Positions 20,213 through 59,059 of a DNA stretch of 64,000 nucleotides are shown one piece after another. The stretch comes from Natrarchaeobius chitinivorans (GTDB taxonomy: Archaea > Halobacteriota > Halobacteria > Halobacteriales > Natrialbaceae): contig NZ_REGA01000002.1 in NCBI RefSeq assembly GCF_003841505.1, forward strand, positions 310,001-374,000, in the 5' to 3' direction. The notes under the pieces are model-generated. The model ran no database searches and was not told the origin of the DNA. It saw only the letters and a list, made by a program, of their open reading frames with translations. The position numbers and the translations under genes were made by a program. Each line of letters opens with the position of its first letter. Within the stretch, counting starts at the first letter, position 1.

Positions 20213-20213
20213 C

Positions 20214-20983: not shown

Positions 20984-21261
20984 GTCCGAGTCACCTCGTC
21001 CGTCTCCGCCTCTGTCTCCGGTTCCTCACGCTGGGTCAGCATTACCGCGAACGTGATGAGGATGAGCACCCCGCCGACGTAGACGAGGATCTGCATCATC
21101 GCGACGAACTCGGCCGCGAGCATCACGTAGAAGACGGCGACGCTCAGTAACGCAACGCCGAGCATGAGCGCCGAGTGCCAGGGGTCCTTCAGGAGGACCA
21201 CGCCCAGCGCGCTGGTGAGCGTCACGAACGCAAACAGCGCGAACGCGATCGTATCCAACAT
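20980..21261 (-). CDS. nuoJ1: Complex I-like subunit J, N-terminal half
   Basis: 93 residues, three helices. The segment LKDPWHSALMLGVALLSVAVFYVMLAAEFVAMMQILVYVGGVLILITFAVML matches the core of NuoJ, including the pi-bulge helix with VYVGGV. Lies 2 bp after nuoI and overlaps nuoJ2 by four bases. Confidence 0.92.
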   Translation of the reverse strand: MLDTIAFALFAFVTLTSALGVVLLKDPWHSALMLGVALLSVAVFYVMLAAEFVAMMQILVYVGGVLILITFAVMLTQREEPETEAETDEVTRT

Positions 21262-21263
21262 TG

Positions 21264-25172: not shown

Positions 25173-25582
25173 GATCGGTTACTCTCTGTCTCCACCTGAC
25201 GAGTCGTCTGTGCCCACTGTACAGCGCCGTTTCGCCACGCCCACGCGAGCCCGACGAACAGGATGAGGACGAACGCGACCATCGGCCCGAGAATCTCGAG
25301 CAACGAGACGGCATCGGATTCGATCGCATCCAGATACACGACCGCCCACGGAAACAGGAGGACGGTTTCGATATCGAAGACGACGAACAGAAGCGCAACC
25401 ATGTAGTACTGGATGTTAAACCGAATGCGCGTCCCGCCGGTCGGCACCTCGCCACTCTCGTAGGTGGCACGTTTGCTCGTTTCTGGAACGCTCGGCCGCA
25501 GGAGATACGATACCGCCATCATTCCGAGCGGTATCAATAGCCCCACGAACGCCAACGCCCCTATGGCTATCCAGTCGTTCAT
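25169..25582 (-). CDS. nuoA: Complex I-like subunit A; first gene of the nuo operon
   Basis: 137 residues from ATG 25582 (MNDWIAIG). The open frame extends further upstream but that part is hydrophilic and overlaps a likely promoter. Three helices; YESGEVPTGGTRIRFNIQYYMVALLFVVFDIETVLLFPWA is diagnostic, with the loop Cys of bacterial NuoA replaced by Ser. A TATA-like CCTTATG on the minus strand near 25612-25624 lies about 35 bp upstream. The operon lacks nuoE, F and G, the NADH-oxidising module, as in other haloarchaea, so the electron donor is probably not NADH directly. Confidence 0.93.
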   Translation of the reverse strand: MNDWIAIGALAFVGLLIPLGMMAVSYLLRPSVPETSKRATYESGEVPTGGTRIRFNIQYYMVALLFVVFDIETVLLFPWAVVYLDAIESDAVSLLEILGPMVAFVLILFVGLAWAWRNGAVQWAQTTRQVETESNRS

Positions 25583-25778
25583 CTCCGTAACGTCCGAACG
25601 TTCAAACCGCACCCACATAAGGGTTGATTGTTCGTTTTTCCGGTAAACGCAGGCCAAGCGGGGGTTTCAGTGCCGAACGAAAGTCCCGTATTGACACGGA
25701 GTAGACGCGATGTCGAGCCATCCGCCGAGATAGGCGACCTGCACCGGTGTTTCCCACCCGACACGGAGTATCAATCCA

Positions 25779-38551: not shown

Positions 38552-39523
38552 TCACGCCTCGCGTATCGTGTCGTTCAGTTCTGGAACGATTTCGTGGAGG
38601 TCGCCGATGACCGCGTAGTCCGCCTTCTGTATGATCGCGGCCTCCGGATCGGTGTTGATCGCGAGGATGGTTTCGGCACCTTTGCAGCCGACCATGTGTT
38701 GGACTGCCCCGCTGATCCCGCAGGGGATGTAGATGTCCGGGCTGATCTTCGCACCCGTCTGCCCGATCTGATCGTCGTGGGGTCGCCATCCCTCGTTAAC
38801 TGCGGCTCGAGACGCACCCACCGTCCCGCCGAGTAGATCCGCCAGTTCCTCGAGTTGGTCGTACGCGTCTGGCCCGCCGACGCCCCGACCACCGCCGATC
38901 ACGACTCTTGCTTCCCCAAGTGGAATCCCTTCTTCGTCCGCCCGTTCGACCCGCTCGACCTGAACCCGAAACTGGGTGTCCTCGAGCGACGGGGTAAACT
39001 CGCTTTCTGACGGATCAGTCGTCGATTCGGCTTTCTCGATCGGAAACTCGTGCTCTGCCGGCGTGAGGAGTGTCGTCCCTGCCTCGAGGCGTGCGTGCTC
39101 GATCAGGCTGCCGCCCCATCGATTTCGCCGCAGTTCGTACGCTCCGTCCTCGACGACGTCGATTCCGATGCAGTTCGCTGCCATCGGCACGTCGAGGGTC
39201 GCTCCGACGTGAGCCAGCACTTCGTGGCCCCGATCGGTGCCCGGAGCGACCACCGCGCTCGGGTCGACGTCGGAGGCGAGTTGTGCGACGCTCTCTCCCC
39301 ACGCCTCCGGCGCGTAGCCGTCGAGTCGATCGTGTACCACGTGATAGACCTCGTCGACGCCGTAGGCACCGAGTTCGTCGACCGAGAGCCGACTCCCGCC
39401 AGCGAATGCGACGACGTCGAGGGACTCGCCGTCCCCGTCCGCCAGCTCGCGAGCCAGCGTGAGCATCTCGAGGGTCTCTTCCGTCGGATCGGACCCCTCG
39501 CGTTCGACGAACGCGAGCGTCAT
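38552..39523 (-). CDS. etfA: Electron transfer flavoprotein, alpha subunit
   Basis: 323 residues. The C-terminal FAD-binding domain is diagnostic: GRGVGGPDAYDQLEELADLLGG, GASRAAVNEGW, IGQTGAKISPDIYIPCGISGAVQHMVG and ILAINTDPEAAI. ETF accepts electrons from acyl-CoA or N-methyl dehydrogenases and passes them to the quinone pool through ETF-quinone oxidoreductase, which is not in this window. Overlaps etfB by four bases, in one apparent operon with the dimethylglycine dehydrogenase-like gene, which suggests that protein is its donor. Confidence 0.95.
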   Translation of the reverse strand: MTLAFVEREGSDPTEETLEMLTLARELADGDGESLDVVAFAGGSRLSVDELGAYGVDEVYHVVHDRLDGYAPEAWGESVAQLASDVDPSAVVAPGTDRGHEVLAHVGATLDVPMAANCIGIDVVEDGAYELRRNRWGGSLIEHARLEAGTTLLTPAEHEFPIEKAESTTDPSESEFTPSLEDTQFRVQVERVERADEEGIPLGEARVVIGGGRGVGGPDAYDQLEELADLLGGTVGASRAAVNEGWRPHDDQIGQTGAKISPDIYIPCGISGAVQHMVGCKGAETILAINTDPEAAIIQKADYAVIGDLHEIVPELNDTIREA

Positions 39524-40293
39524 ATCACTTCGACCTCCGACTCGAGTACGTCGACGACGTTCGCTACGGCATCGGTGCCATCACCGAGTATTTCGGCTTC
39601 GGATTCGGCGGTCTCGGGTGCTTCCAGGCGGACTTTCTCGTACGTTCCGGCACCCGTATCGGCGGTCGGTTCGCGTCGATCGACGTCCTGGCGACGCGCC
39701 TGCATCTTTGCGCGCATCGAGGCGTACCGCGGCTCGTTGATCCCCTCTTTGACCGTGATAACGGCCGGGAGGGCGATCTCGTACACCTCCTCGCCGCCGG
39801 AAACCTCGCGCCTGGCGATCGCCGTCCCGTCCTCGACGTCGAGCGATTTGATCCCCGTTACACACGGGAGGTCGAGTTCGGCCGCGACGCGAGTACCGAC
39901 CTGATAGTTCGCCGCATCTGCTGACTCGTTACCGAACAACAACAGATCGAATTCGGCTCCATCATCGCCGAGTTCGCGGACCCCGTTCGCGATAGCGCTG
40001 GCGGTCGCTCGCGGTCCCCACTCTTCGTCTCCGGCTTCGAGTAACGTGGCCTCGTCGGCCTGCATGGCAAGTCCGGTTCGGAGTTGTTCGGTCGCTTCCT
40101 CTGGCCCGAGCGTAAGGACGTGTGCCGAACCGCCGTGTGCTTCGGTTTGCTGGACGGCTTCTTCGATTGCACACTCCTCGTGGGGGCTCATGGTAAAGCC
40201 CAGATTGGTCGTGTCGATTCGCTGTTCGTCGTCGGTCAGTACGATCTTTGCGCCGGTGTTCGGCACCCGTTTGATACAGGCGAGTACGTTCAT
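39520..40293 (-). CDS. etfB: Electron transfer flavoprotein, beta subunit
   Basis: 257 residues. Starts MNVLACIKRVPNTGAKI as in the family, then MSPHEECAIEEAVQ and VLTLGPEEATEQLRTGLAMQADEATLL, LLFGNESADAANYQVGTRVAAELDLPCVTG and the signature LPAVITVKEGINEPRYASMRAKMQAR. Pairs with EtfA to bind FAD and AMP. Starts 65 bp after the dehydrogenase gene and overlaps etfA. Confidence 0.95.
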   Translation of the reverse strand: MNVLACIKRVPNTGAKIVLTDDEQRIDTTNLGFTMSPHEECAIEEAVQQTEAHGGSAHVLTLGPEEATEQLRTGLAMQADEATLLEAGDEEWGPRATASAIANGVRELGDDGAEFDLLLFGNESADAANYQVGTRVAAELDLPCVTGIKSLDVEDGTAIARREVSGGEEVYEIALPAVITVKEGINEPRYASMRAKMQARRQDVDRREPTADTGAGTYEKVRLEAPETAESEAEILGDGTDAVANVVDVLESEVEVI

Positions 40294-40358: not shown

Positions 40359-42893
40359 TTAGCCGCGGATTCGTTCGTTCTCGGGGTCGAACAGCGGTCT
40401 GCTCCCAACGACCTCGACGGTTACCGGATACCGTTCGCCCATGTACTCGACGTGGAGATCCTGCCCTTCCTCGGCGTACTCCGGCGGGAGGTACGCCATG
40501 AGGAGGTGCTTGCCGACGGTCGGTCCGGTCCCCGCGCTCGTCACGTACGATTCGCGACCCTCGCCGTCGACGATCACGTCGCCCTCTTCGTCCAGTATCG
40601 GCTCGTTACCCAGCATGAATCGCCGCTCGCCGTCTGCCGACAGGTGATCGACGACCGAGAGCGTACACAACGTGGCCGCGTTCTCCTCTTCGATCGCGTC
40701 CGCGTACGCGTCCTTGCCGACGAAGTCCGCGTCTTTGACGCCGTGGAACGTCAGACCGGCTTCCGCGGGCGTGTACTCGAGTTCGAGTTCGTGACCGTAG
40801 AGGCGATACCCCTTCTCCATCCGACCGGTCGTTCCGTAGACGCCCATTCCGACGGGTCGAATGTCGTACTCCTCGCCAGCCTCGGCGATGGTATCCCAGA
40901 GCCGTCGTCCCTGTCCCATCGGCGCGTAGACCTCCCACCCGAGTTCGCCCACGTAGGAGAGACGCATCGCCCAGGCGTCGACTTCGCCGACGGTTAAATC
41001 CTGGGCCGTGTACGGCGGGAACGCCTCGTCGGACACGTCTTCTTCGGCGACGTCGGCGATCACGTCGCGGGCGTCGGGCCCCCAGATGCCGAGCGTACAG
41101 AGCGACTCGGATCGGTCGATCAGACTCACGTTCCCGGTATCCGGAATGTGGCGTGTGAACCATGCACGATCGGAGCCGGCCGCCGCACCGCCGGTTATCA
41201 CCCGGTACCGTTCGGGGCCGAGACGTGCGATCGTCAGATCGGAGACGAAACCGCCGTTCTCCGCGAGAATCGGTGTATAAACCGTTTTGCCGACGTCGAC
41301 GTCGGTTCGACCGACGGCCATCCGTTCCATATATTCGGGAACGTCGGATCCGACGAAGTCGAAGATGCCAAAACCCATGTCGCCGATCATGGCGACGTTG
41401 TCGCGCATGTGACAGTGTTCGGCGAGGATGATCGGCGACCACCAGCGCGAATCCCACTCGTTGGGGCGCGTAAGCCCTGCAAGTTCGGTGTTGTACTCCG
41501 TGAGCAGATCCCGGTTCGACTCGAACCACTGTGGACGCTCCCAGCCGGCGGCCTCGAAAAACTGCGCGTCGAGGTCCTCTTGCCGGTCGTAGAACGCGCT
41601 GGTTCGAAGCGGCCGCGAACTCTGCCACTGTTCGGCCGGATGGACGATGCCGTAGATCTTCTGGAACCCCTCTCGAGAGCGGTTCTCGACGAACGTTCGG
41701 GAGGTCCCGTACTCGTAAAAACGGTTGACGTTCGACGCGTGGAGGTCAATGTCGGACCAGCCACGCGTCATCCACTGGGCGACGGCCTCACCGATCGCCG
41801 GCGCTTCCTTGATCCAGACGGCCGCACACGACCACAGCCCCTCGACGTCCTGCAGCGGGCCGAGTAGCGGCATCCCGTCCGGGGTCTGTGAGAGGAGTCC
41901 GTCGATCTCGTGGCGGACCCCGGCCTCCGGATCGTCGAGCAACTGGGGGACGATCTCGAGGGCGTCCGCCATCGACTGTTCGAACGCGTCGTCGGTCAGC
42001 GGCGGCTGGGTCGGCGAGAGCGGTGCCTCCTCGATCGACGGCACGTCGTCGACGTCCCAGAGGATCGGTCGGTGCTGATAGGAGCCGACCTCGAGGTCGT
42101 TGCCGTGCTGGCGTTCGTACATCTGCGTGTCCATATCCCGTATGACGGGAAACGAGATCTCGCCTTCGTACTCCTCGAAGTACGAGATCGGTCCGACGCT
42201 GACCATCTGGTGGACCGCAGGTGTCAGCGGGATCTCGACGCCGGCCATCGCGGCTATCTTTGGGCTCCACAGTCCCGCTGCGATCACTACCTCGTCAGCC
42301 TGAACGGTTCCGCGATCCGTCTCGACGGCCCGGATGGCTCCGTCCTCGACGTGGAGGTCGAGCACCGTCGTGTTCGGCGAGACCGTCAGTCCGCCGTCGG
42401 CGGCGTGGTCCGCTCGAGCACGCATGACCTCGCCCGCCCGGAGCGGATCACAGGTCCCGGCACTCGGGCTGTAGAACCCACCTTCGATGATCTCCGTGTT
42501 GAGATAGGGGACCATCTCCTCGACCTCGTCGACGTCGAGCATCCTGCCGGGTTCGCCCCAGGCTTTGGCCGACTGGACGCGTCGCTCGAGTTCGTCCATG
42601 CGCTCTTCCGTACGGGCCACCTCGAGCCCGCCGCTTTCGGTGAACGTGTCCATGTCCTCGTACTGCTCGATACTCCGGCGGGTCAGGTGGGTCATCTCCT
42701 TCGAGTGTTCGACGGGCATGAGGAAGTTCGACGCGTGGCCCGTCGACCCGCCGGGGTCCGGCAGCGGTCCCTTGTCCAGTACGACGAGGTCCGTTCGGCC
42801 CTGCTCAGTGAGGTGGTAGGCGAGACTGTTCCCGACGATCCCGGCCCCGATGATGACTGTCTCCGCACTCGAGGGGAGGTCGCGTTCGCTCAT
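40359..42893 (-). CDS. Dimethylglycine/sarcosine dehydrogenase-like flavoprotein with C-terminal GcvT domain
   Basis: 844 residues from ATG 42893; the frame extends upstream without family likeness. Residues about 10-400 are a DAO-type FAD oxidoreductase: ETVIIGAGIVGNSLAYHL dinucleotide-binding loop and GGSTGHASNF, where His53 is placed like the His that carries covalent FAD in dimethylglycine dehydrogenase. Residues about 430-844 are folate-binding GcvT-like (YGTTGRMEKGYRLYGHELELEYTPAEAG, FVGKDAY, GKHLLMAYLP). Such enzymes demethylate dimethylglycine or sarcosine and hand the carbon to tetrahydrofolate as methylene-THF. The etfBA genes downstream fit the electron path. Substrate (dimethylglycine, sarcosine, or another N-methyl compound) is not decided. 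Confidence 0.88.
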   Translation of the reverse strand: MSERDLPSSAETVIIGAGIVGNSLAYHLTEQGRTDLVVLDKGPLPDPGGSTGHASNFLMPVEHSKEMTHLTRRSIEQYEDMDTFTESGGLEVARTEERMDELERRVQSAKAWGEPGRMLDVDEVEEMVPYLNTEIIEGGFYSPSAGTCDPLRAGEVMRARADHAADGGLTVSPNTTVLDLHVEDGAIRAVETDRGTVQADEVVIAAGLWSPKIAAMAGVEIPLTPAVHQMVSVGPISYFEEYEGEISFPVIRDMDTQMYERQHGNDLEVGSYQHRPILWDVDDVPSIEEAPLSPTQPPLTDDAFEQSMADALEIVPQLLDDPEAGVRHEIDGLLSQTPDGMPLLGPLQDVEGLWSCAAVWIKEAPAIGEAVAQWMTRGWSDIDLHASNVNRFYEYGTSRTFVENRSREGFQKIYGIVHPAEQWQSSRPLRTSAFYDRQEDLDAQFFEAAGWERPQWFESNRDLLTEYNTELAGLTRPNEWDSRWWSPIILAEHCHMRDNVAMIGDMGFGIFDFVGSDVPEYMERMAVGRTDVDVGKTVYTPILAENGGFVSDLTIARLGPERYRVITGGAAAGSDRAWFTRHIPDTGNVSLIDRSESLCTLGIWGPDARDVIADVAEEDVSDEAFPPYTAQDLTVGEVDAWAMRLSYVGELGWEVYAPMGQGRRLWDTIAEAGEEYDIRPVGMGVYGTTGRMEKGYRLYGHELELEYTPAEAGLTFHGVKDADFVGKDAYADAIEEENAATLCTLSVVDHLSADGERRFMLGNEPILDEEGDVIVDGEGRESYVTSAGTGPTVGKHLLMAYLPPEYAEEGQDLHVEYMGERYPVTVEVVGSRPLFDPENERIRG

Positions 42894-43224
42894 CGTCGCT
42901 CCTGGCCTCCGCCGGAAGAGCGTTCGTTCTCCGGGTCGGACCGTACTCTCGGTTCGGTGGCGTACAGTATCATCGTCGTGTGGGAGTGACCACCGCACGG
43001 AGTATTAAAAGACCGCATACTTGACAGTATCGAGGAAAGTCGAGGAACGGCCACGACGGCCGGTGTTCGTCGATCCGCAGCCGAATTTAGCCGTATAAGG
43101 GTTGGAAGCGACGTTTTCGGAGTGAGTCTCGAGGGAGTTGGCCCCACGCCGGGGGACGGCCTCGAGGAACTCCTGGTGCCCACTCCACAACGTAAATCCG
43201 TTCTAACTCGTTGGGGAGTGTGGT
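42894..43224. other. Upstream region of the dehydrogenase-etfBA operon
   Basis: About 330 bp between the folCP stop and the dehydrogenase start, both on the minus strand. It has AT-rich patches (TATTAAAAG near 43000 and TTAGCCGTATAAGG near 43088) that could be promoter elements. No gene seen. Confidence 0.4.
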
Positions 43225-45705
43225 CTATCGACGAAATTCGGTTCGCTGTGCAGTGGCGATGGCCGCAGCGTTCGGTTCGACGTCGTGGACGCGAACGAGG
43301 TCGACGCCGCGCTCGGCTGCGAGCGTCGTCGCGGCGATCGTCGGAGCGAGCCGGTCGCCCTCGGGGTGGGTCACGGATTCGAGCATCGACTTTCGGGAGT
43401 GTCCGACCATAAGCGGTGTCCCGAGCGCCCGGAACTCCGCGAGTCGGTCGAGCAGTTCGAAGCTCTGGGACGGCGTCGTGCCAAAGCCGAGTCCCGGATC
43501 GACGATCAACTGGGATCGATCGATTCCCGCGCGCTCGGCGAGGATGATACGTTCGGTGAGGGTCTCGAGGACGTCCTCGACGACGTCGTGGGAGACGTAC
43601 CGGCGATCGGGATCGACCGGAACCGACGGGCTGTGCATGAGCACTGCCGGAACGTCGTACTCGGCGACCACCTCCCGTACCCGCGAGTCCGTGAGTCCGG
43701 TCACGTCGTTTACCATCTCGGCCCCCGCATCGAGCGCGGCCTCGGCGACCGACGGTTTGTGCGTATCGATCGAAATCGTCGCGTCGAGACCGTCGAGACG
43801 ATCGAGGACGGGAAGAACCCGCTCGCGTTCCGTTTCGGCGCTGATCGGTTCGGCTCCCGGCCGAGTCGACTCGCCGCCGACGTCGATGACGTCCGCCCCC
43901 GCAGCCACCATCTCTTCGGCGCGGACGACCGCGTCCTCGACCGCGTCGTACTCGCCCCCGTCGTGGAACGAATCCGGCGTCACGTTCAGAATCCCCATCA
44001 CGGCCGTTTCGCTGGCCCAGGGATACTCGCCGCTCGAGTCGTCGCTTCCGAGACCGACCGCGTTCGTCAACTGCTCGGCGAGTCGCCGGCCGCCGATCGC
44101 CCGGCCGCGCAGTCGCGCCGTGAGCGTTTTGAACTGGGCGATCGTCCCTGCGAGCACCACCTCGACGTGTTGATCCGTCGCCTCGACGCCGGAGACCGCA
44201 CAGGTTCCACCCAGCGACGCCATCAGCGTACGTAACTCGGCCGCCTCGTCGTGACGGACGTGAACTCGAACCGTTCGTCGGGGGATCCGATCGACGCAGT
44301 TCCGATGCCTGGCCGCAGGGACGTCCGCCTGGGTCAGCACTCTCCGGGCCTGTTCCCGCGTCGAGGTCCGAACCGATCGAATCGACCGCGTCCACCGATC
44401 GCGGGCCTCGGCCACGACGGAGAGCGACCCGGTTACGAGGACGCAGTCCGACGGGTCGGCGGTCCGAAGCGCCCGGTCGAGCGCGACGAGGACCGATTCG
44501 TAGCGATCGATCGTCGCATCCGTCTGGTCGTCGAATATCGCTGCGAGTGAATCCGTCCCCCGGGCGCGCTCGACGTCCGGTGACGCGAGGTAGACCCGGT
44601 CGGATTCCGGAAGCGCACGACACATTCCGGGGACGTCTTTCTCGCGCAACGCGCCGAAGACGAGGTGAAGGTCGTCGTACTCGAACCGCTCGAGAAGCGT
44701 CGCGACGGTCGAACACGCGTCGGGATTGTGCGCGCCATCGAGGATCGAAAGCGGTTCGTCGCCGACGAGTTCGAACCGACCGGGCCAGCGGACGTTTCGG
44801 ATCCCGGCTGTGATATCGTCGGTCGACGGATCGGCGACCTGTCGCGCGAGGGTGGCCGCGATACCGGCGTTGACGGCCTGGTGCGATCCCAGAAGCGGTA
44901 TTCGACTTCGGATCTCCCACTCCGGCCCGACGATCGAAACCGAAGACATCGTCTTCGTCACCATTCCCCCCTCTTTGACCCGAACGTCGGGAACCGAATC
45001 GGATGCGTCGATCGAGTCGCCGCTCGCCCGAGCCGTCCCCGAATCGGATTCGCCGGCGGGCCCGACCGTCACGACGTCGGTCTCACGACGAATCTCGGAG
45101 AGCGCCTCACCCGTCGCGCCGGTCACCAGCGGTGCGTCGCCGGGGGCAACCTGTGCCTTGTCGCGTGCGATTTCGGCGACCGTCGATCCGAGGATGTCGG
45201 TGTGCTCGAGACTGACGGAGGTGACCGCGGCTGCGACGGGATCGACGACGCTCGTCGCGTCGTACCGACCGCCGATTCCGACCTCGAGGACGGCGACGTC
45301 GACCCCCTCGCGCTCGAAGTGCCAGAGGGCCATCGCCGTGAGTACCTCGAAGAACGTCGGTGCCTTGCTCTCCGTGGACCGTTCGATCACGTGTGGCCAG
45401 ATCGCTTCGACGAAGTCGACGACCTCCGCCTTCGGGATCTTCCGTCCGTCTACCGTGATCCGTTCGCGTCGATCGTTCAGGTCGGGCGAAGTGTAACAGC
45501 CGACGGTGGCCCCGGATTCCCGCAGAATTCGATCCAGCAGTCGGGCCGTGCTGCCTTTCCCGTTCGAGCCGGCGATCTGGACGGCGACGAGTTCTTCCTG
45601 GGGATTTCCGATCTCCGCGAGCATCGCTTCGGTCGCGTCCGTCCCCATCTCGGGCCGCAGACGTCGCAGTCGTTCCAGCCTGTTAATCGCCTCGTGATAC
45701 TCCAT
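43225..45705 (-). CDS. folCP: Bifunctional dihydrofolate synthase/dihydropteroate synthase
   Basis: 826 residues from ATG 45705 (MEYHEAINRLERL). The N-terminal ~420 residues are FolC (Mur-ligase fold): AGSNGKGSTARLLD P-loop, YTSPDLNDRRERI, LEVGIGGRYDATSV, LEHTDILG, and ILDGAHNPDA. The C-terminal ~280 are FolP: MGILNVTPDSFHDGGEY, DVGGESTRPGAEPIS, NDVTGL, VDPGLGFGTTPSQSFELL and VGHSRKSML. Between them is a ~130-residue linker domain. FolP joins pterin to p-aminobenzoate and FolC adds glutamate. Haloarchaea are known for this fusion. It supplies the THF used by fhs, the dehydrogenase and the GcvT-like proteins nearby. Confidence 0.94.
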   Translation of the reverse strand: MEYHEAINRLERLRRLRPEMGTDATEAMLAEIGNPQEELVAVQIAGSNGKGSTARLLDRILRESGATVGCYTSPDLNDRRERITVDGRKIPKAEVVDFVEAIWPHVIERSTESKAPTFFEVLTAMALWHFEREGVDVAVLEVGIGGRYDATSVVDPVAAAVTSVSLEHTDILGSTVAEIARDKAQVAPGDAPLVTGATGEALSEIRRETDVVTVGPAGESDSGTARASGDSIDASDSVPDVRVKEGGMVTKTMSSVSIVGPEWEIRSRIPLLGSHQAVNAGIAATLARQVADPSTDDITAGIRNVRWPGRFELVGDEPLSILDGAHNPDACSTVATLLERFEYDDLHLVFGALREKDVPGMCRALPESDRVYLASPDVERARGTDSLAAIFDDQTDATIDRYESVLVALDRALRTADPSDCVLVTGSLSVVAEARDRWTRSIRSVRTSTREQARRVLTQADVPAARHRNCVDRIPRRTVRVHVRHDEAAELRTLMASLGGTCAVSGVEATDQHVEVVLAGTIAQFKTLTARLRGRAIGGRRLAEQLTNAVGLGSDDSSGEYPWASETAVMGILNVTPDSFHDGGEYDAVEDAVVRAEEMVAAGADVIDVGGESTRPGAEPISAETERERVLPVLDRLDGLDATISIDTHKPSVAEAALDAGAEMVNDVTGLTDSRVREVVAEYDVPAVLMHSPSVPVDPDRRYVSHDVVEDVLETLTERIILAERAGIDRSQLIVDPGLGFGTTPSQSFELLDRLAEFRALGTPLMVGHSRKSMLESVTHPEGDRLAPTIAATTLAAERGVDLVRVHDVEPNAAAIATAQRTEFRR

Positions 45706-45833
45706 ACCCAGAGGTTGACACGCCACCCAATAAAGGTCATGTGAGTCGAACGTCCCGAACGACTCGGCCGCTCCCGTCGCCCCGCCCGCTTCGGTTTCCC
45801 GCTCGTGTCTACGATCGGAAACGTATATCAACA

Positions 45834-45839
45834 TTTATA
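45834..45839 (+). promoter_or_regulatory. TATA box of fhs
   Basis: TTTATA centred about 30 bp before ATG 45866 in an AT-rich run (ATATCAACATTTATAC). Spacing implies a leaderless fhs transcript. Confidence 0.6.
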
Positions 45840-45865: not shown

Positions 45866-47584
45866 ATGACAACAACTGGCGAGGATGACGAATCGACACA
45901 GACGGACTACGAGATCGCACAGTCCGTGGAAACGGACCCCATCGTTGACGTCGTCGAACCGTTCGGACTCTCGGAAGACGATCTGGAACTGATGGGCGAG
46001 GAGAAAGCCAAAGTAACGCTCGAGGCGATCGAACGCATCAAACGAGAAAAAGACGATGACGGGAAACTCGTCCTCGTCACCGGCATGACGCCGACGCCGC
46101 TCGGAGAGGGCAAGACCGTAACGACGGTCGGGCTCGGACAGGCGTTCAACCAGATCGGGAAAGACGCGCTCGTCGCGGTTCGGGAACCGTCGCTCGGGCC
46201 CGTCTTCGGAGTCAAAGGCGGTGCCGCCGGCGGCGGATACTCGCAGGTGCTTCCGATGGAGGACATCAACCTCCACTTTACCGGAGACCTCCACGCCCTC
46301 ACGTCGGCGCACAACCTCATCGCGACGATGCTCGACAACCACATCAAGCAGGGCAACGAGTTGAACATCTCGGTCAACCAGGTCAACTGGCCGCGTGCGA
46401 TCGACATGAACGACCGGGCGCTGCGCGAGACCGTCGTCGGCCTCGGCGGCGACGTCACCGGCGTCCCACGGGAAGACGGGTTCATCCTGACCGCCGCGTC
46501 GGAACTGATGGCCGTGCTCTGTCTGGCCGACAGCATCGAGGATCTCAAAGCGCGTATCGGCCGCATCATCGTCGCCTACGACGAGGACGGCGATCCGATC
46601 ACGGTCGACGACATCGGCGCGACGGGAGCCGCTTCGATCCTGTTGAAAGACGCACTGAAACCGAACGTCGTCCAGACCATCGAGGGAACGCCCGCGTTCG
46701 TCCACGGCGGTCCGTTCGCGAACATCGCCCACGGAACCAACTCGTTGATCGCTGACGACGTCGCCTCTCATCTCTCGGAGTACCTGGTCACCGAGGCCGG
46801 CTTCGGCTCCGACCTGGGAGCCGAGAAGTTCATGAACATCGTCTGCCGGTTCGGCGACATGGAACCCGACGCGGTCACGCTCGTCGCCTCCGTGCGGGCG
46901 CTCAAGTACCACGGCCAGGAGATGTGGCCACCCGACCTCGACGAACTCGAAGCGGAAGACGTCGACGCAGTAGAGCGCGGCCTCGAGAACCTCGACAAGC
47001 ACGTCACCAACCTGCAGAAGTTCGGCGTGCCAGTCGTCGTCGCGCTCAACCGGTTCCCCGGCGACACCGACGCGGAGGTCGACGCCGTCCTCGATCACTG
47101 CCGTGACGAACTCGGAATCCGTGCCGCGGAGTCGACCGTCTTCGGTGAGGGCGGCGAGGGCGGAATCGAACTCGCCGAGAACCTGGTCGACGCAGCGGAG
47201 TCCGAATCGGAGTACGAACCGCTGTACGACATCGACGCCCCGATCAAAGAGAAGATCGAAACCGTCGCAACCGAGATTTACGGCGCTGACGGCGTCAACT
47301 TCAGCAGCGACGCCGAGGACGACATGGAGCGACTCACTGACCACGGCTTCGACGACGTCCCGATCTGTATGTCGAAGACGTTCCACTCGCTCAGCGACGA
47401 CGCGAGCAAGAAGGGCGTTCCCGAAGACTGGACGCTCGACGTAAACGAAATCTACCCCTCGGCGGGAGCCGGGTTCCTCGTTGTACTGACGGCGGACGTA
47501 CTCACGCTCCCCGGCCTTCCGGGCGAACCGGCGGCTGCAGGGATGGATCTCGACTCCGACGGAAACGTCTCCGGCCTGTTCTAG
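45866..47584 (+). CDS. fhs: Formate-tetrahydrofolate ligase
   Basis: 572 residues, full length for the family. Catalyses formate + ATP + THF to 10-formyl-THF, reversibly. The P-loop is TPTPLGEGKTVTTVGL (about 75-90); other hallmarks are REPSLGPVFGVKGGAAGGGYSQV, DINLHFTGD, ITAxxNL-like LTSAHNLIATMLDNH, AFVHGGPFANIAHG and EAGFGSDLGAEKF. Divergent from folCP. In a demethylation pathway it could run in reverse, giving ATP and formate from 10-formyl-THF, or forward to feed purine synthesis; the sequence cannot tell. Confidence 0.96.
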   Translation: MTTTGEDDESTQTDYEIAQSVETDPIVDVVEPFGLSEDDLELMGEEKAKVTLEAIERIKREKDDDGKLVLVTGMTPTPLGEGKTVTTVGLGQAFNQIGKDALVAVREPSLGPVFGVKGGAAGGGYSQVLPMEDINLHFTGDLHALTSAHNLIATMLDNHIKQGNELNISVNQVNWPRAIDMNDRALRETVVGLGGDVTGVPREDGFILTAASELMAVLCLADSIEDLKARIGRIIVAYDEDGDPITVDDIGATGAASILLKDALKPNVVQTIEGTPAFVHGGPFANIAHGTNSLIADDVASHLSEYLVTEAGFGSDLGAEKFMNIVCRFGDMEPDAVTLVASVRALKYHGQEMWPPDLDELEAEDVDAVERGLENLDKHVTNLQKFGVPVVVALNRFPGDTDAEVDAVLDHCRDELGIRAAESTVFGEGGEGGIELAENLVDAAESESEYEPLYDIDAPIKEKIETVATEIYGADGVNFSSDAEDDMERLTDHGFDDVPICMSKTFHSLSDDASKKGVPEDWTLDVNEIYPSAGAGFLVVLTADVLTLPGLPGEPAAAGMDLDSDGNVSGLF

Positions 47585-48473: not shown

Positions 48474-50255
48474 TCAGTCGTCGTCTGCTGTTCCCCTCCT
48501 GCCCGTCTCCTGGATGTTGGTCACCACCCCCGAACCCGACTTCCTGACGACGACGTCCCGTTCGTCTTTGATGTCGTCGACCCACTCTGCGAACTCGTCG
48601 GACTCGAGCGTCCTGTACTCCTTCGATAACCCCAGGTAGAGGCTGTAGCAGAGGAACACGAGGACCAGGGCGAACGGAAGTCCCGCCGTGATCGCGGCCG
48701 TCTGTAACGCGCCGAGACCGCCCCCGATCAGCAGGACGGACGCGACGACACCTTCCGCGAGTGCCCAGGCGATTCGCTGGTTTCGGGGTGCGTCGTGTTT
48801 CCCTCCGGAGGAGAGGTGACCGAGGACCAGCGATCCGGAATCCGAAGAGGTCACGAAGAACGTCGTCACCAGAATCACAGCCAGAACTGAGAGTACGATG
48901 GTAAACGGCAACAGGGTGAACAGTTCGAACATGGCGACTTCTTCGCCGACGTCGAACACCGTTCCCATGATGCCCTGATCGGTGAACAGCTCGAAGTTGA
49001 GCGCGGTGCCACCGAAGACGGCCATCCAGAAAAACGAGAAGATAGCCGGCAGTATCAGGACGCCGCCGACGAACTCCCGAACCGTCCGTCCACGTGAGAT
49101 GCGAGCGATGAACAGTCCAACGAACGGCGACCACGAGATCCACCACCCCCAGTAGAAGACCGTCCAGGCGTCGAGCCAGCCCTCGTACGGAGCGCCACCG
49201 AAGCTGTCCGCCCACAGCGACAGCTGGGGAAAGTTCGTCAGGTAGGTGCCCAACGCCTGCGGGAAGAGTCCGAGGACGAAAACGGTCGGGCCGACGATCA
49301 GGACCGTAAACAGCAACGCAAACATGAGCCCCACGTTGAGATTACTGAGTCGGCGAATCCCCTTGTCCAGCCCGGCACCGACCGACAGGAGTGCGATCGC
49401 GGTTATGACCGCGATGATCGCGACCTGTGCGCCCGTCCCAGAGGGGACGGTCGTCCCGACGACCTCGTCGCCGAGAAACGAGAGACCAGCCGAGATCTGT
49501 AAGGCGCCCAGTCCCAGCGAGGTTGCGATGCCGAACAGCGTGGCAAAGATCGTCAGGATGTCGATGACGTGACCCGGCCAGCCGTATATCCGATCGCCGA
49601 GGACCGGCCAGAAGACCGACCGGAAGGTAAGGGGAAGCCCGCGGTTGAACGAGAAAAACGCCAGACCGAGTCCGACCAGCCCGTAGATCGCCCACGGGTG
49701 AAAACCCCAGTGGAAGTACGTAATCGCCATCCCGACCTCGGCACCGGCTGCGGTTTCACCCTCTGCACCTAGCAGCGGATCGGCGAAGTGAAACAGCGGT
49801 TCGCCGACGCTCCAGAACATGAGGCCGATCCCCATCCCTGCACTGAACAGCATCGCGATCCACGAGACGTCGCTGAACTCTTTTTCCGCGTCGACACCGC
49901 CGAGTCGAATCTTCCCGTACTTGCTGAACGCGAAGAATAGAACGACGACGATGAAGAGGTTGACCGCCAGAATGTAGAACCAGCCGAAGTTCGAGGCGAT
50001 TCCTCCCTGGAGCCACTCGAACGCACCTTCCGCCGACGCGAACGTCTCGCCGAGCGCGTTTGCAGCGAACTCAGCCGGGTAAAACAGCGTTACCAGAATA
50101 AACGCGACGATCACTCCGATCGAAATGAAAAATACGTGTGGCTGGACGTCCATTCCGGCTATCTGTACGTTCGTATCCCCCGGCTCGACGTCCGTGTCCG
50201 CTTCGAACCAGTCGTCCGTCAGTCGCTCTTTCCACGGGTTGTCATCTCCCACCAT
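48474..50255 (-). CDS. BCCT-family transporter 1 (betaine/choline/carnitine-type)
   Basis: 593 residues, 12 helices. BCCT signatures: GMGIGLMFWSVGEPLFHF (the family Gly-rich TM3 site and following Glu-Pro), FHWGFHPWAIY, WWISWSPFVGLFIARISRGRTVREF (TM8 Trp box that binds trimethylammonium groups), and SSDSGSLVLGHLSSGG in TM10. The charged N- and C-terminal tails are cytosolic and may sense osmotic stress as in BetP. Likely imports glycine betaine or a related compound with Na+ or H+. Convergent with the Usp gene. Confidence 0.93.
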   Translation of the reverse strand: MVGDDNPWKERLTDDWFEADTDVEPGDTNVQIAGMDVQPHVFFISIGVIVAFILVTLFYPAEFAANALGETFASAEGAFEWLQGGIASNFGWFYILAVNLFIVVVLFFAFSKYGKIRLGGVDAEKEFSDVSWIAMLFSAGMGIGLMFWSVGEPLFHFADPLLGAEGETAAGAEVGMAITYFHWGFHPWAIYGLVGLGLAFFSFNRGLPLTFRSVFWPVLGDRIYGWPGHVIDILTIFATLFGIATSLGLGALQISAGLSFLGDEVVGTTVPSGTGAQVAIIAVITAIALLSVGAGLDKGIRRLSNLNVGLMFALLFTVLIVGPTVFVLGLFPQALGTYLTNFPQLSLWADSFGGAPYEGWLDAWTVFYWGWWISWSPFVGLFIARISRGRTVREFVGGVLILPAIFSFFWMAVFGGTALNFELFTDQGIMGTVFDVGEEVAMFELFTLLPFTIVLSVLAVILVTTFFVTSSDSGSLVLGHLSSGGKHDAPRNQRIAWALAEGVVASVLLIGGGLGALQTAAITAGLPFALVLVFLCYSLYLGLSKEYRTLESDEFAEWVDDIKDERDVVVRKSGSGVVTNIQETGRRGTADDD

Positions 50256-52282: not shown

Positions 52283-52376
52283 CCGTCACGGTTCTCTGAC
52301 CCGGAGCACGTCGACACCGGTGATCCGGATCTCCCTCGACAGAACTACTATCACCGGCGAAGTGGTACCGTCTGTC

Positions 52377-54221
52377 ATGGCTACCCACGGTACGGGTGGG
52401 ATAGAGCGGACTCTCCGACGCGCGCTCGTCCCCCTGTTCGCCCTCTCTGGAGCCGTCGTGGTCACGGCGTTTTTCTTTCCGGCGATCGTCGGGGACGTCG
52501 TCTCGGGACGCGTCTGGCTGTTCCTGTCTCTCGTCTTCTTCGGCTCGGGGTTGAGCTACGTCTCCCTGTTGCCCCTCGAGGCCGAAGAGGGGGAAAAAAC
52601 TGACGAACCGGACGATCCACGCCGCGTCCTGACCGTCCGTCGAATTTCCCGTCTCGATACGGCACGGGAGTTTTTCGCCGGACAGGATCCGATCGTCTTC
52701 GGCACGTCGGTGGGCGGGCTTACGGCCTTTTTCGGACTGTATCTGCTTGCACCGGCGACGATGGCCACCTCGATCAGCGTCGTTCGGAACGTCCTCTTGC
52801 GGGAGTTTGGGTGGCTGTTTGCGGCTCCGATCCTCGTCTCCGTGGTGTTCTGTCTGTACCTGCTCGTCGGCCCCTGGGGCGACATCAAACTCGGCGGTCC
52901 GGACGCGACCCCGGGGTACACGTATCCAGTGTACTTCACGATGTTTTTCACCGCGGGAATCGCCGCTGGAATCGTCTTCTGGGGGCCTGCGGAAGCCCTC
53001 TTTCACTATCGGGAGCCGCCGCCGTCCATGGCGGCCGAACCCCGATCGGACGCGGCCGTCGTTGGCGCACTGACCTACGCCCTGTTCCACTGGGGGTTCT
53101 CGGCCTGGAGCGCATACGTCGTCGTCGGCGTGCCGATCGCGTACTTCGTCTACCAGCACGGAGCCCCCCTCCGCGTTTCGACGGCGCTGGCGCCGTTTCT
53201 CGGCCTCGAGGGACTCGATTCCGTCTGGGCTCGATTCGTCGACTTGCTCGCGGTACTCGCGACGATCGGTGGAATCGCGACCTCGATCGCGCTCGTGAGT
53301 CAACAGTTTCTCGCGGGGATCGATCATCAGTGGGCCGTAACGTACGGGACCGGCGGATCCGTCCTGTTCGTGACGGGTCTGACGGCAATTTTCGTCATTT
53401 CGGCTCGAACTGGAGTCCACCGCGGCATCCGACGTCTCTCGGCGATCACGATACTCCTCTTCGCGCTCGTTTCGGTCGTCCTGTTCGTTCTCGGTCCACG
53501 GTGGTTCGTTCTCGAGCAGGGTGCCGCCGCGGTCGGGCGCTACGCCGTCACGTTCGTGCCGATGAGCGTCGAGTTCGGCACCGAGTGGGCCGCCGGCTGG
53601 ACCGTCTGGAACTGGTCGTGGTGGTTCTCGTGGGCCCCCTTCGCCGGATTATTTCTCGCCGCACTCTCGAAGGGAAGACGTATCAGGACGGTCGTCCTCA
53701 CCGGATTCGTCGCGACCTCGATGGCCACGATGACGTGGTTTCTCCTCCTGGGGGGAACCGCAATTCAGTTCCAGCGGTCCGGTCGCGCCGACATCCTCGG
53801 TGCCGTCGAAGCGTTCGGCGGTTCGGAGGCGGTCGCCGGCTTTCCGCTGTTCCAGGCGCTGGCGCTCGGCCAGTTGCTTACGTTTCTCTTTCTCGCGCTC
53901 ATCATTTGCTTTATCGCGACGTCGGCAGACACCTCGACGCTCGTCGTCGCGATCCTCGCGGCCAGACACGAGGTCGCCCCGACGACCGGTGCGGTCGTCT
54001 TCTGGGGTCTCTTTCAGGGCGTCGTCGCCGTCTCCGTGCTGGTCACGGGGAGCGCACAGACACTCCAGACCGCGGCGGTGTTGACAGGCGCTCCGATCGC
54101 GCTCGTGTCGGTCGTCGCAGTGGTCGGTCTAACGCGATTTTGCCTCGAGCACGAGCGCGGACACGCATCGGCGTTCGGACGACTTCGGTCAGTCGTCCTC
54201 GAGCGTGAAACCGACGACTGA
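52377..54221 (+). CDS. BCCT-family transporter 2, divergent
   Basis: 614 residues from ATG 52377 (in-frame ATG at 52320 has no better support). Twelve helices. Core signs: GPWGDIKLGG, FTAGIAAGIVFWGPAEALFHY (Gly-rich TM3, Glu-Ala in place of Glu-Pro), FHWGFSAWSAYVVVG, WNWSWWFSWAPFAGLFLAALSKGRRIRT (Trp box), and ATSADTSTLVVAIL. The TM1-TM2 link is unusually long and acidic (EAEEGEKTDEPDD). The departures from transporter 1 suggest a different substrate or coupling ion. Confidence 0.88.
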   Translation: MATHGTGGIERTLRRALVPLFALSGAVVVTAFFFPAIVGDVVSGRVWLFLSLVFFGSGLSYVSLLPLEAEEGEKTDEPDDPRRVLTVRRISRLDTAREFFAGQDPIVFGTSVGGLTAFFGLYLLAPATMATSISVVRNVLLREFGWLFAAPILVSVVFCLYLLVGPWGDIKLGGPDATPGYTYPVYFTMFFTAGIAAGIVFWGPAEALFHYREPPPSMAAEPRSDAAVVGALTYALFHWGFSAWSAYVVVGVPIAYFVYQHGAPLRVSTALAPFLGLEGLDSVWARFVDLLAVLATIGGIATSIALVSQQFLAGIDHQWAVTYGTGGSVLFVTGLTAIFVISARTGVHRGIRRLSAITILLFALVSVVLFVLGPRWFVLEQGAAAVGRYAVTFVPMSVEFGTEWAAGWTVWNWSWWFSWAPFAGLFLAALSKGRRIRTVVLTGFVATSMATMTWFLLLGGTAIQFQRSGRADILGAVEAFGGSEAVAGFPLFQALALGQLLTFLFLALIICFIATSADTSTLVVAILAARHEVAPTTGAVVFWGLFQGVVAVSVLVTGSAQTLQTAAVLTGAPIALVSVVAVVGLTRFCLEHERGHASAFGRLRSVVLERETDD

Positions 54222-54798: not shown

Positions 54799-56079
54799 CT
54801 ATCCGTCGGCCCCGTAATTCCCCACCGGCGACTCCGCAGGCGCACGGTTCACCACGTCGACGTCGTAGCCGTGATCGGTGATCGACTCGACGATGTTGCG
54901 GGCGTGTTCAGCACCGCTCGTCTCGACCTGAAAGATGAGATAGGCCTCGCCGACGTCTAAGTCCTCGAGGGCACGGTCGTGTCGAACGGTCTGAATGTTC
55001 GCATCGTGGTCCGCGATGACTCCCGAGAGTTCCGCCATCTTCCCGGGTCGATCGTCGATGTGAACGCGGAGTCGCAGGATCTGCCGGCGGTGAGTCAGGG
55101 CGTGGATCAGTATCGCCCGGAGCATCGTCATGTCCAGGTTGCCCCCACAGAGCAACGGCATCACGCGTTCCCCCTCGACGTCGAGTTCGTCGCCTTGGAT
55201 CGCCGCGACTGCGGCCGCGCCGGCCCCTTCGACCAGTTGCTTCGACCGCTCGAGCAAGACGAGGACGGCGTCGGCGATTTCCCCGTTCGTGACGGTTACG
55301 ATTTCGTCGACGTGGCGTTCGATGATCGACAGCGTCAGCTCCGAGACGCCGCCGGTCGCGATTCCGTCGGCGATCGTATCGACCGACTCGAGAGTCTGTG
55401 GAACGCCCTTGTCGAGGCTGTCCAGAACCGTCACGGCCCCGGCCGCCTGAACGCCAACGACCCGCGTGTCGGGGCTTCGTTCGGCGAAGGCGGTCGCAAT
55501 TCCACTTATTAGACCACCGCCACCGATCGGAACGACGACCGTCTCCGCGGCCGGGTAGTCCTCGACCATCTCGAGTCCGAGCGTCCCCTGCCCGGCGACG
55601 ATCGCCGGATCGTCGAAGGCGTGGACGAACTCCGCCTCTCCCTCATCGGCGAGCGTTCGTGCGTGGGTCGTCGCTTCCTGAAAGTCCTGCCCGACGAGCT
55701 CGACCGACGCGCCGTAGCCGCGGGTCGCGTCGATTTTTGTCTGGGGAGCGGTCTTCGGCATCACGACCGTCGATTCGATCCCGAGTTTCGTCGCAGCCAG
55801 TGCGACGCCCTGTGCGTGGTTGCCGGCGCTGGCTGCGACGACCCGTTCGGTACCTCGTTCCTCGAGACAGCGTCTGATCTTGTTGTACGCGCCCCGCGTC
55901 TTGAACGAGCCAGTCCACTGGAGATGCTCGAGTTTGAGGACGACCTCTGCGGCACCGGTCATCGACTCGAGGGAGGTGCTTCGTTCGGTCGGCGTTCGTT
56001 TGACGACCGACGGGTCGTCAAGTCGCTCCCGTGCAGCCTCGATATCGGCGAACGAAACGGATTCGTCTCCGTCGCTCAT
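54799..56079 (-). CDS. ilvA: Threonine/serine dehydratase with ACT domain
   Basis: 426 residues from ATG 56079, preceded on the minus strand by a strong GGAGGTGA ribosome site; a longer open frame upstream lacks family likeness. PLP enzyme, fold type II: WTGSFKTRGAYNKI with the Schiff-base Lys, AASAGNHAQGVALAA, PIGGGGLISGIATAF phosphate loop, and LCGGNLDM. The C-terminal ACT domain (LRLRVHIDDRPGKMAELSGVI) may bind an amino-acid effector. It deaminates threonine to 2-oxobutyrate and usually also serine to pyruvate, which would fit with serine formed from glycine plus methylene-THF in this neighbourhood. Confidence 0.93.
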   Translation of the reverse strand: MSDGDESVSFADIEAARERLDDPSVVKRTPTERSTSLESMTGAAEVVLKLEHLQWTGSFKTRGAYNKIRRCLEERGTERVVAASAGNHAQGVALAATKLGIESTVVMPKTAPQTKIDATRGYGASVELVGQDFQEATTHARTLADEGEAEFVHAFDDPAIVAGQGTLGLEMVEDYPAAETVVVPIGGGGLISGIATAFAERSPDTRVVGVQAAGAVTVLDSLDKGVPQTLESVDTIADGIATGGVSELTLSIIERHVDEIVTVTNGEIADAVLVLLERSKQLVEGAGAAAVAAIQGDELDVEGERVMPLLCGGNLDMTMLRAILIHALTHRRQILRLRVHIDDRPGKMAELSGVIADHDANIQTVRHDRALEDLDVGEAYLIFQVETSGAEHARNIVESITDHGYDVDVVNRAPAESPVGNYGADG

Positions 56080-56624: not shown

Positions 56625-58001
56625 ATGTCCGACAGCCAACCGCCGCGGACGGAGAGTCAGGACCACCCGAACTACCCGAGCGTCGATCAGTCCGATCGGA
56701 CGGTCCCGAGAAACCTTCGCCAGTCAGGCGATCCGGGTATCGAGATGCTCGTCTCCACGCGCGTCCGGAAATCACCGTTTTTCCACAAATCGTTCGTCGA
56801 GAACGGTGCCTGGCGCGCCACGGTTTACAACCGGATCTATCACCCTCGAGGGCTCGTCGAACCCGAAGAGGGCGGTATGATGGAGGAGTACGACGCGCTC
56901 GTCAACCGGGTCACCCTGTGGGACGTCGCGGTCGAACGCCAGATCCGCGTCGAAGGCCCTGACGCGGAGGCGCTTACCGATTACGTCATCACCCGGGACG
57001 CCACGGAGATCGAACCGATGCACGGCAAGTACGTCATCCTGTGTAACGAAGACGGCGGGATCCTCAACGATCCCGTCCTGTTGCGTCCCGGCGAGGACGA
57101 GTTCTGGTTTTCCATCTCGGATTCGACGCTGATGCAGTGGCTACAGGGCGTCAACGTCGGAAAAGGATTCGACGTCGAGATCGACGAAATCGATGTCGCG
57201 CCGATGCAGATCCAGGGGCCGCGGTCGGTCGACGTGATGGTCGACGTAGTCGGCGAAGAGGTCGAAGGGATTCCCTACTACGGCCTGATGGAAGCCGAGA
57301 TCGACGGCTGTCCGGTACTGGTCAGCCAGACTGGCTTCTCCGGCGAGAAGGGGTTCGAAATCTACGTTCACGACGCGACGAAACACGCCGAAGCCGTCTG
57401 GGACCCCGTCCTCGAGGCCGTCAGAGACCACGGTGGCATGCAGGTCGCACCGGCCCACCACCGCCGCATCGCCGCGGGAATCCTCTCGTGGGGACAGGAT
57501 ATGGACCACGAGACGTCGCCGTTTCAGGTCAACCTGGGCTATCAGGTCCCCGAGGACAAAGACGCCGACTACGTCGGCAAGGAAGAACTCGAGCGCCAGC
57601 GGGACCTGATCGCGGACGGCGAGTACCCGTTCGTCCACAAGATGGTCGGACTCAAACTCGCCGGCGAGCCGATCCGGGACTACGCGCCGGACTTCTGGCT
57701 CATCTCGGACCCGGAGACGGGAGAGGAGTGTGGATACGTCACCTCGCCGTGGTACAACCCCGAACTCGAGACGAATCTCGCACTCGGGTTCGTCCCCGCG
57801 GCGAAACTCGACGGCGACGTCTCCGAGGTGTACGACGGCGAAATCGAGACGGAGTTCCAGGTTCACCTCCCCGACGAGTACGCCGAGGAACCCGGAGAGC
57901 CGGTGTACGCCAAAGTCTCCGAAGTTCCGTTCAAACCGTCGGTCAACCCGAGCGCCCGCGAGCAGGCGAAACTGAACGCACGGGAGAAATCGACCGAATG
58001 A
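56625..58001 (+). CDS. GcvT-family THF-dependent demethylase, DmdA-like
   Basis: 458 residues. Not a normal glycine-cleavage T protein: it begins with the STRVRKSPFFHKSF block and then ATVYNRIYHP, LWDVAVERQIRVEG and NEDGGILNDPV, a layout like the DMSP demethylase DmdA (which has R-R-T-P-F, TVYNHM, LWDVSVERQV, NGGIVNDPV). Later segments QIQGPRSVDVM, GFSGEKGFEIYV and FVGKEEL-like YVGKEEL are shared by all GcvT folate proteins. It should transfer a methyl group from a methylated donor to THF, giving methyl-THF. The MetF-like gene 191 bp downstream could oxidise that product. Donor (DMSP, betaine, dimethylglycine or other) is unknown. Confidence 0.82.
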   Translation: MSDSQPPRTESQDHPNYPSVDQSDRTVPRNLRQSGDPGIEMLVSTRVRKSPFFHKSFVENGAWRATVYNRIYHPRGLVEPEEGGMMEEYDALVNRVTLWDVAVERQIRVEGPDAEALTDYVITRDATEIEPMHGKYVILCNEDGGILNDPVLLRPGEDEFWFSISDSTLMQWLQGVNVGKGFDVEIDEIDVAPMQIQGPRSVDVMVDVVGEEVEGIPYYGLMEAEIDGCPVLVSQTGFSGEKGFEIYVHDATKHAEAVWDPVLEAVRDHGGMQVAPAHHRRIAAGILSWGQDMDHETSPFQVNLGYQVPEDKDADYVGKEELERQRDLIADGEYPFVHKMVGLKLAGEPIRDYAPDFWLISDPETGEECGYVTSPWYNPELETNLALGFVPAAKLDGDVSEVYDGEIETEFQVHLPDEYAEEPGEPVYAKVSEVPFKPSVNPSAREQAKLNAREKSTE

Positions 58002-58192: not shown

Positions 58193-59059
58193 ATGGCATC
58201 GGAAATAGAACGCATCGACACGGGTGAGGGCATCAGGACGTTACTCGAGGAGCCGCGGTTCGAACTGATGCCGTTCGAGAGCATGGACGAACAGCTAGAA
58301 CACCTGCCTGAGGGGGCCGAAGTCGCCATCACGACCTCACCGACGCTCGGCCTGGAAGCGACGATCGACTGGACCGAACGGGCGTCTGAGCGCGGCTACG
58401 AGATCGTCCCCCACGTCGCCGCGCGGTACGTTCGAGACCGGGAACACCTCGAGGAACTCACGGGGCGACTCACTGATGCGGGCGTCACCGACGTCTTCGT
58501 CCCCGGCGGCGATCGCGAAGAACCGGTCGGCGAGTTTTCGTCCGCCTACGAACTGCTGTCTGCACTCGACGAACTCGACTCCGGGTTCGATGACGTCGGG
58601 ATTACCGGGTATCCCGAGGGACACGCGTTTCTCGACGATGAGGTCCTCGCCGAGTCGATGGCAGAAAAAGAGCCCTACGCCACCTACATCGTGACCCAGC
58701 TGTGTTACGACGCCGAGACGATCCTCGAGTGGATCGAGGACGTCCGGGACCGTGGCGTCGACCTCCCGGTCGAGATCGGCATTCCGGGCGTCATGAAGTA
58801 CCAGCGGTTGCTCGGTATCTCGAAGAAAGTCGGCGTTGGTGATTCGGTTCGATTCCTGCAAAAGACGACCGGGGTACTCGATTTCGTTCGCCGGTTCGTC
58901 GGCGCTCGCGGAATGTACACCCCGGCCGACCTCGTCGAGGGAATCGCCCCGTACGCGACCGATCCGTACTACGACGTACGCGGCGTCCACATCTACGCGT
59001 TCAACCAGGTACTCGACCTCGAGTCGTGGCGTGCGGAGACGCTCGACCAGCATCGGTGA
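58193..59059 (+). CDS. Methylenetetrahydrofolate reductase-like protein (MetF family)
   Basis: 288 residues, TIM-barrel flavoprotein family. Segments AITTSPTLGLEATIDWTERASERGYEIVPHVAARYVRD (substrate His in PHVAAR), VFVPGGDRE (usually ALRGD), GITGYPEGH, YIVTQLCYDAETILEWI and PVEIGIPGVM are typical. It interconverts methylene-THF and methyl-THF with FAD. Same strand as, and close to, the DmdA-like demethylase, so here it probably runs in the oxidative direction from methyl-THF. The cofactor that reoxidises FAD is unknown. Confidence 0.88.
   Translation: MASEIERIDTGEGIRTLLEEPRFELMPFESMDEQLEHLPEGAEVAITTSPTLGLEATIDWTERASERGYEIVPHVAARYVRDREHLEELTGRLTDAGVTDVFVPGGDREEPVGEFSSAYELLSALDELDSGFDDVGITGYPEGHAFLDDEVLAESMAEKEPYATYIVTQLCYDAETILEWIEDVRDRGVDLPVEIGIPGVMKYQRLLGISKKVGVGDSVRFLQKTTGVLDFVRRFVGARGMYTPADLVEGIAPYATDPYYDVRGVHIYAFNQVLDLESWRAETLDQHR

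Follow-up and report, generated by a model that had tools for sequence, protein, structure and literature searches.

The 64,000-nucleotide stretch of Natrarchaeobius chitinivorans DNA analysed here (contig NZ_REGA01000002.1, positions 310,001 to 374,000; hereafter the window) raises the question of what a DmdA-like protein does in an archaeon, and from which compound it would take a methyl group. An earlier note on this DNA had described an ORF at 56625–58001 with the motifs RVRKSPFF, TVYNRIYHP, LWDVAVERQI and GGILNDPV and a MetF-like gene 191 bp downstream, all of which an ORF check and Pfam searches bore out. The ORF runs on the + strand from an ATG at 56625 to a stop at 58001 (458 aa) and contains all four motifs; its frame is open further upstream, to a GTG at 56277, and the conserved N-terminus is that starting from 56625. 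In Pfam, its GCV_T domain scored 141 bits against a cut-off of 25.6, with GCV_T_C marginal and slightly below its cut-off. The top named family was DmdA (NF009133, 236 bits), followed by GcvT and trimethylamine N-oxide (TMAO) demethylase at 153 bits each and sarcosine oxidase alpha at 106. The DmdA score is nonetheless 174 bits short of the equivalog cut-off of 410, whereas true DmdAs from marine bacteria reach 442–692 bits, and the protein also fell below the GcvT cut-offs (NF001567, 152.9 against 300; TIGR00528, 126.6 against 235.85). The TMAO demethylase Tdm and the LigM/DesA O-demethylases have the GCV_T fold and THF-linked demethylation in common with it but a different architecture, and match its sequence more weakly (Tdm, 153 bits for a cut-off of 1100; LigM, 38 bits for a cut-off of 580). 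We propose that it works in the cytoplasm as a THF-dependent demethylase and represents a subfamily of its own in the DmdA superfamily, with glycine betaine as its putative methyl donor.

Alignment revealed 14 residues of the superfamily's THF and methyl-transfer site shared with DmdA (R48, P51, Y68, N69, R105, Q106, R124, N148, D149, W161, S163, D166, E188 and S239). Among them, D149 at the THF site corresponds to D108 of the P. ubique DmdA structure 3TFH, of which R13, Y32, N33, R64, Q65, R83, W120, S122, D125 and the NDP motif are likewise conserved. N148, which precedes D149, stands where GcvT has D, and the DmdA-type R105, R124, W161, S163 and D166 also occupy positions at which GcvT residues differ. 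Unlike DmdA, the demethylase has N- and C-terminal extensions (458 versus ~369 aa); it is 27–33% identical to the true DmdAs in the alignment, and there are 19 positions at which its family and DmdA each have a fixed residue of their own. F238 stands where DmdA has W197, as read from the sequence alignment to 3TFH. This structure is the nearest by sequence (E 1e-41) and also came first in a Foldseek search (E 3.6e-35, TM 0.93 on target) with an AlphaFold2 model of mean pLDDT 83 and pTM 0.83, T. maritima GcvT being a close second. Since DmdA and GcvT both match the fold closely, the fold alone does not decide between them, and phylogeny does.

We built a careful tree of 67 rows (haloarchaeal sequences, a paralog, bacterial orthologs, two bacterial DmdA-like groups, true DmdA and GcvT) and a separate quick tree that took in DMGDH domains. 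In the former, the demethylase family forms its own clade (support 100/99), whose sister group joins DmdA with bacterial DmdA-like groups A and B (98/91). The demethylase thus falls outside both this larger group and the DmdA clade proper (100/100), and its clade is split from GcvT with 100/100 support. Placement inside GcvT, the outcome that would have counted against the earlier note, was looked for in the trees and not seen, and the view of a DmdA-like rather than GcvT-like protein in an archaeon holds (236 bits for NF009133 versus 153 for GcvT). That the demethylase could be a normal T protein of the glycine cleavage system, or a paralog that moonlights, is a reading favoured by the same fold and domains, but it can be given almost no weight: besides the tree split and the DmdA-type residues in place of GcvT ones, the genome holds a further two genes that look like GcvT. 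We rejected a GcvT identity on tree and residues. The claim that the protein follows DmdA stands at the level of the superfamily and fails for DmdA itself, a DmdA identity being rejected on score, separate clade and gene neighbours. Joining the demethylase family to DmdA alone in one clade costs 33 log units, and with an AU p of 0.053 this arrangement is not strictly rejected.

The haloarchaeal demethylases (100/100) are nested among bacterial orthologs that do not make up a single clade, an arrangement that fits transfer of the gene from bacteria to haloarchaea and is not proof of direction. A second haloarchaeal paralog (~65–70% identity), mostly unlinked to MetF or DMGDH, may use a different methyl donor. 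Separately, a large bacterial DmdA-like group with uncharacterised function (~363–398 bits to NF009133) occurs in many roseobacters in a conserved Lrp-OsmC-enoyl-CoA hydratase-acyl-CoA synthetase operon, and in Lichenihabitans and Marinobacterium with PurU, MetF and FolD.

The MetF-like gene (58193–59059, + strand, 288 aa), which begins 191 bp past the demethylase stop, is proposed to encode a methyl-THF oxidase that would convert 5-methyl-THF to 5,10-methylene-THF. Its product scored 45.9 bits for PF02219 (cut-off 24) and had 7xg9 as its best PDB match; its TIGR00676 equivalog score of 51.3 against 293.7 bits is so far below the cut-off that we regard it as a distant MetF member. The functional tie to this gene suggested by the earlier note proved strict in a survey of 292 Halobacteria genomes: MetF is present in 69/69 genomes with the demethylase versus 3/223 without, and the distance between the two genes is at most 10 kb in 59 of the 69 and at most 1 kb in 38, so that their pairing is not due to chance. 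MetF acts on methyl-THF, and the GcvT-type and DMGDH-type reactions yield methylene-THF, for which MetF is not needed; LigM systems are also paired with MetF. DmdA carries out a redox-neutral transfer that gives 5-methyl-THF, whereas GcvT gives 5,10-methylene-THF (PMC5395565). Given this difference in products, the strict tie to MetF points to methyl-THF production by the demethylase, and from the coupling we infer transfer of a methyl rather than a methylene group, the same redox-neutral chemistry as in DmdA, with MetF probably working as an oxidase. Support is good for the fold, the subfamily and the link to methyl-THF. Because split MetE is the usual methionine synthase of haloarchaea (PMC7857596), which methyl-THF could feed, part of the methyl groups may serve methionine synthesis. 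A second MetF-like gene (46% identity) was found at G000:C5:27709-28527, where Gfo/Idh-type, enolase-superfamily-like and FAH-like genes and an IclR-like regulator were read by eye; its locus is perhaps another demethylation pathway.

The window places the demethylase within 20 kb of genes for uptake and dimethylglycine degradation. On the − strand lie a dimethylglycine dehydrogenase/oxidase-like gene (DMGDH, 40359–42998, likely start near 42893) with an FAD part and a GCV_T part, the electron transfer flavoprotein subunits EtfB (39520–40293), the proposed acceptor of DMGDH electrons, and EtfA (38552–39523), and a FolC-FolP fusion of ~869 aa (43225–45834; TIGR01499 300 bits and TIGR01496 292, both over cut-off), which would supply folate through folylpolyglutamate and dihydropteroate synthesis. 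Formate-THF ligase Fhs follows on the + strand (45866–47584; NF010030 820 bits, over the cut-off of 652). Two BCCT transporters complete this set, one closest to glycine betaine BCCT (48474–50255, − strand; NF047988 549 bits against a cut-off of 650, TIGR00842 498, over cut-off) and a more diverged one (52320–54221, + strand; NF047988 355 bits, below cut-off). Divergent from the demethylase is a threonine ammonia-lyase-type PLP enzyme (54799–56079, − strand; TIGR01127 450 bits, over cut-off), whose ORF opens at 56307 with a likely start at 56079, and which is linked to the demethylase in at least 12 loci.

Similar surroundings recur in relatives. Across forty 20-kb stretches, the recurrent neighbours of the primary gene were MetF, BCCT, DMGDH, the dehydratase, Fhs, universal-stress proteins and K-channel genes, with FolD, GlyA, FchA, PabA/PabB and an N-methyl amino acid oxidase in some; on pNG700 of Haloarcula marismortui, the gene is immediately preceded by dihydrofolate reductase and followed by MetF, two DMGDH and a Rieske gene. 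In none of the 40 haloarchaeal loci did we find dmdB-, dmdC- or dmdD-type neighbours, and the genome lacks a close DmdC, the 586-aa DmdC matching only generic acyl-CoA dehydrogenases of 406–438 aa. These neighbours, different from those of DmdA, bear on the possibility that the demethylase acts like DmdA on DMSP or another sulfonium compound, or takes the second DMSP methyl, as was speculated for SAR11_1265 (Sun et al. 2011, PMC3160333). DmdA is its closest named family and fold, DMSP transport is possible for BCCT/OpuAC proteins, and the AU value leaves room for a joint clade, yet the score deficit, the position outside the DmdA clade, the neighbours, the separate true DmdA owned by SAR11 and the constant presence of DMGDH, which DMSP would leave unexplained, make a sulfonium donor quite unlikely.

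Gene counts across the 292 genomes gave further clues to the donor: 69 have the demethylase, 72 MetF, 100 DMGDH and 48 (44 of them strong) a Rieske oxygenase. DMGDH is present in 69/69 genomes with the demethylase but in only 31/223 without. The 100 genomes with DMGDH divide into 54 with the demethylase only, 29 with a GbcA-like Rieske oxygenase only, 15 with both and two with neither, so that one or the other occurs in 98/100; in 28 of the 29 Rieske-only genomes the Rieske gene is within 10 kb of DMGDH. This mutual replacement upstream of DMGDH resembles alternative routes from betaine to dimethylglycine, an argument that leans on an inferred function, the haloarchaeal Rieske proteins being only GbcA-like and, at 132 bits, well short of the GbcA cut-off of 670. 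Fisher p values were extreme, but with related genomes and genes that may move together they measure association rather than independent events. A single island may carry these genes from genome to genome; the substitution of demethylase and Rieske oxygenase is beyond what simple co-transfer explains. Of the four genomes of its genus, only this one has the trio of demethylase, MetF and DMGDH. Our search of this genome for other first-step enzymes covered two families, BHMT-type PF02574 and Rieske alpha PF00848, and detected neither; the reading that a Rieske enzyme starts the pathway here was rejected on this result.

That DMGDH accompanies the demethylase so strictly suggests dimethylglycine as the product, and hence glycine betaine as the donor. 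Together with the replacement by Rieske genes, the BCCT/OpuAC linkage and the missing dmdB/C/D-type neighbours, this co-occurrence narrows the choice left open by the earlier note (DMSP, betaine or dimethylglycine) to glycine betaine as the probable donor, the other two being less likely. We put at roughly 60% the probability that the demethylase acts as a glycine betaine:THF methyltransferase, with MetF oxidising the methyl-THF that it makes. In the proposed pathway, betaine would be imported through BCCT proteins and one methyl passed to THF, yielding dimethylglycine and 5-methyl-THF; the neighbouring MetF would form 5,10-methylene-THF, and DMGDH with EtfBA would take dimethylglycine via sarcosine to glycine. 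FolD and Fhs would oxidise the C1 unit to formate, Fhs as the last step, and GlyA and the dehydratase could carry glycine via serine to pyruvate, with the dehydratase putatively acting at the serine-to-pyruvate step.

Dimethylglycine itself, or sarcosine, as the substrate, with methyl-THF or methylene-THF as the product, would account for the DMGDH that always stands alongside, and the GCV_T parts of DMGDH use these compounds. DMGDH already covers this reaction with its own GCV_T part, and its constant presence disfavours dimethylglycine as donor; a THF protein on its own lacks the flavin needed for amine oxidation, non-oxidative methyl transfer is chemically harder from a tertiary than from a quaternary amine, and MetF would be unexplained, so that we consider this reading very improbable. 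Another quaternary N-methyl compound (choline, carnitine, proline betaine, homarine or trigonelline), with DMGDH-type enzymes processing the product and MetF oxidising the methyl-THF, is an unlikely donor, less easily set aside given that BCCT/Opu transporters are broad, BCCT and OpuAC proteins also carrying DMSP, choline and carnitine. The permease next to the SAR11 orthologs has a slightly higher score as choline permease, and the donor range of the family may vary, as the second paralog (~69% identity) is usually unlinked to MetF/DMGDH. Glycine betaine agrees best with the strict DMGDH co-occurrence and with a gene set that is complete from betaine to glycine. A report that some Haloarchaea do not use betaine (PMC3102087) may count against the glycine betaine reading. 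Fifteen haloarchaeal and some SAR11 genomes also carry a Rieske and/or BHMT-like gene, so that the demethylase may share the first step with other enzymes, or may have another donor there.

True bacterial orthologs (57–67% identity, ~435–452 aa) keep the same N-terminus, VDQSDR...NLRQ...STRVRKSP, and occur in SAR11, SAR86, roseobacter and other alphaproteobacterial genomes. The SAR11 ortholog (57% identity) overlaps metF, and in two SAR11 genomes an OpuAC-type binding protein, a ProW/ChoW-type permease (the one scoring slightly higher as choline permease), metF and the ortholog follow each other in this order on one strand, so that transporter genes of glycine betaine type stand immediately upstream of the pair; in one of the two genomes BHMT-like and DMGDH genes adjoin it. 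SAR11_1265 was described in 2011 as an aminomethyltransferase of unknown function and substrate adjacent to metF SAR11_1264 (PMC3160333), and the two fall together in stationary phase (PMC5069961). Adjoining metF and related to dmdA, as published (PMC3160333), the SAR11 orthologs appear to be of the SAR11_1265 type, the identity in HTCC1062 resting on gene order and these papers; for this type, Sun et al. guessed at the second DMSP methyl, whereas we propose glycine betaine. GbcA-like Rieske oxygenases (122–129 bits of the 670 cut-off) were also seen near the metF-demethylase pair in SAR11 genomes.

Glycine betaine is among the most abundant compatible solutes of saline waters. The known first steps of its breakdown are those of the Rieske GbcAB and BHMT (PMC12093977). 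GbcAB would share with the demethylase the betaine-to-dimethylglycine step and the neighbours DMGDH, BCCT and Etf, but it is an unrelated protein, an oxygenase that releases formaldehyde and makes no methyl-THF; BHMT also moves the betaine methyl non-oxidatively, but has an unrelated fold and homocysteine, not THF, as acceptor. The betaine cluster of Vibrio natriegens (BCCT, dgcAB-fixAB, gbcA, glyA, sdaB; PMC12093977) matches that in the window, with gbcA replaced by demethylase and metF. We see an even chance that a THF-dependent betaine demethylase family in haloarchaea and in marine bacteria that are themselves abundant (SAR11, SAR86, roseobacters), coupled to an oxidative MetF, interchangeable with GbcA-type Rieske oxygenases and passed from bacteria to haloarchaea, constitutes a third aerobic first step. 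If so, it would be a third oxygen-tolerant way to start glycine betaine breakdown, after Rieske and BHMT, and would explain entry of betaine methyl groups into folate as methyl-THF without oxygenase or homocysteine. One enzyme would then fill both the function gap of SAR11_1265 and the first-step gap left in haloarchaea, where dimethylglycine oxidases beside BCCT transporters were reported in 2011 with no named first-step enzyme (PMC3102087), and such genes should not be counted as dmdA in DMSP surveys. In the open-access journal literature, searches on DmdA or DMSP in haloarchaea and on THF-linked betaine demethylation turned up no paper naming such a betaine demethylase.

Elsewhere in the window, an open frame of 2350 aa (4249–11301, − strand) possibly encodes a very large surface protein, and a gene run at 15127–25657 (− strand) looks, by eye, like a cluster for respiratory complex I (nuo/fpo-type).
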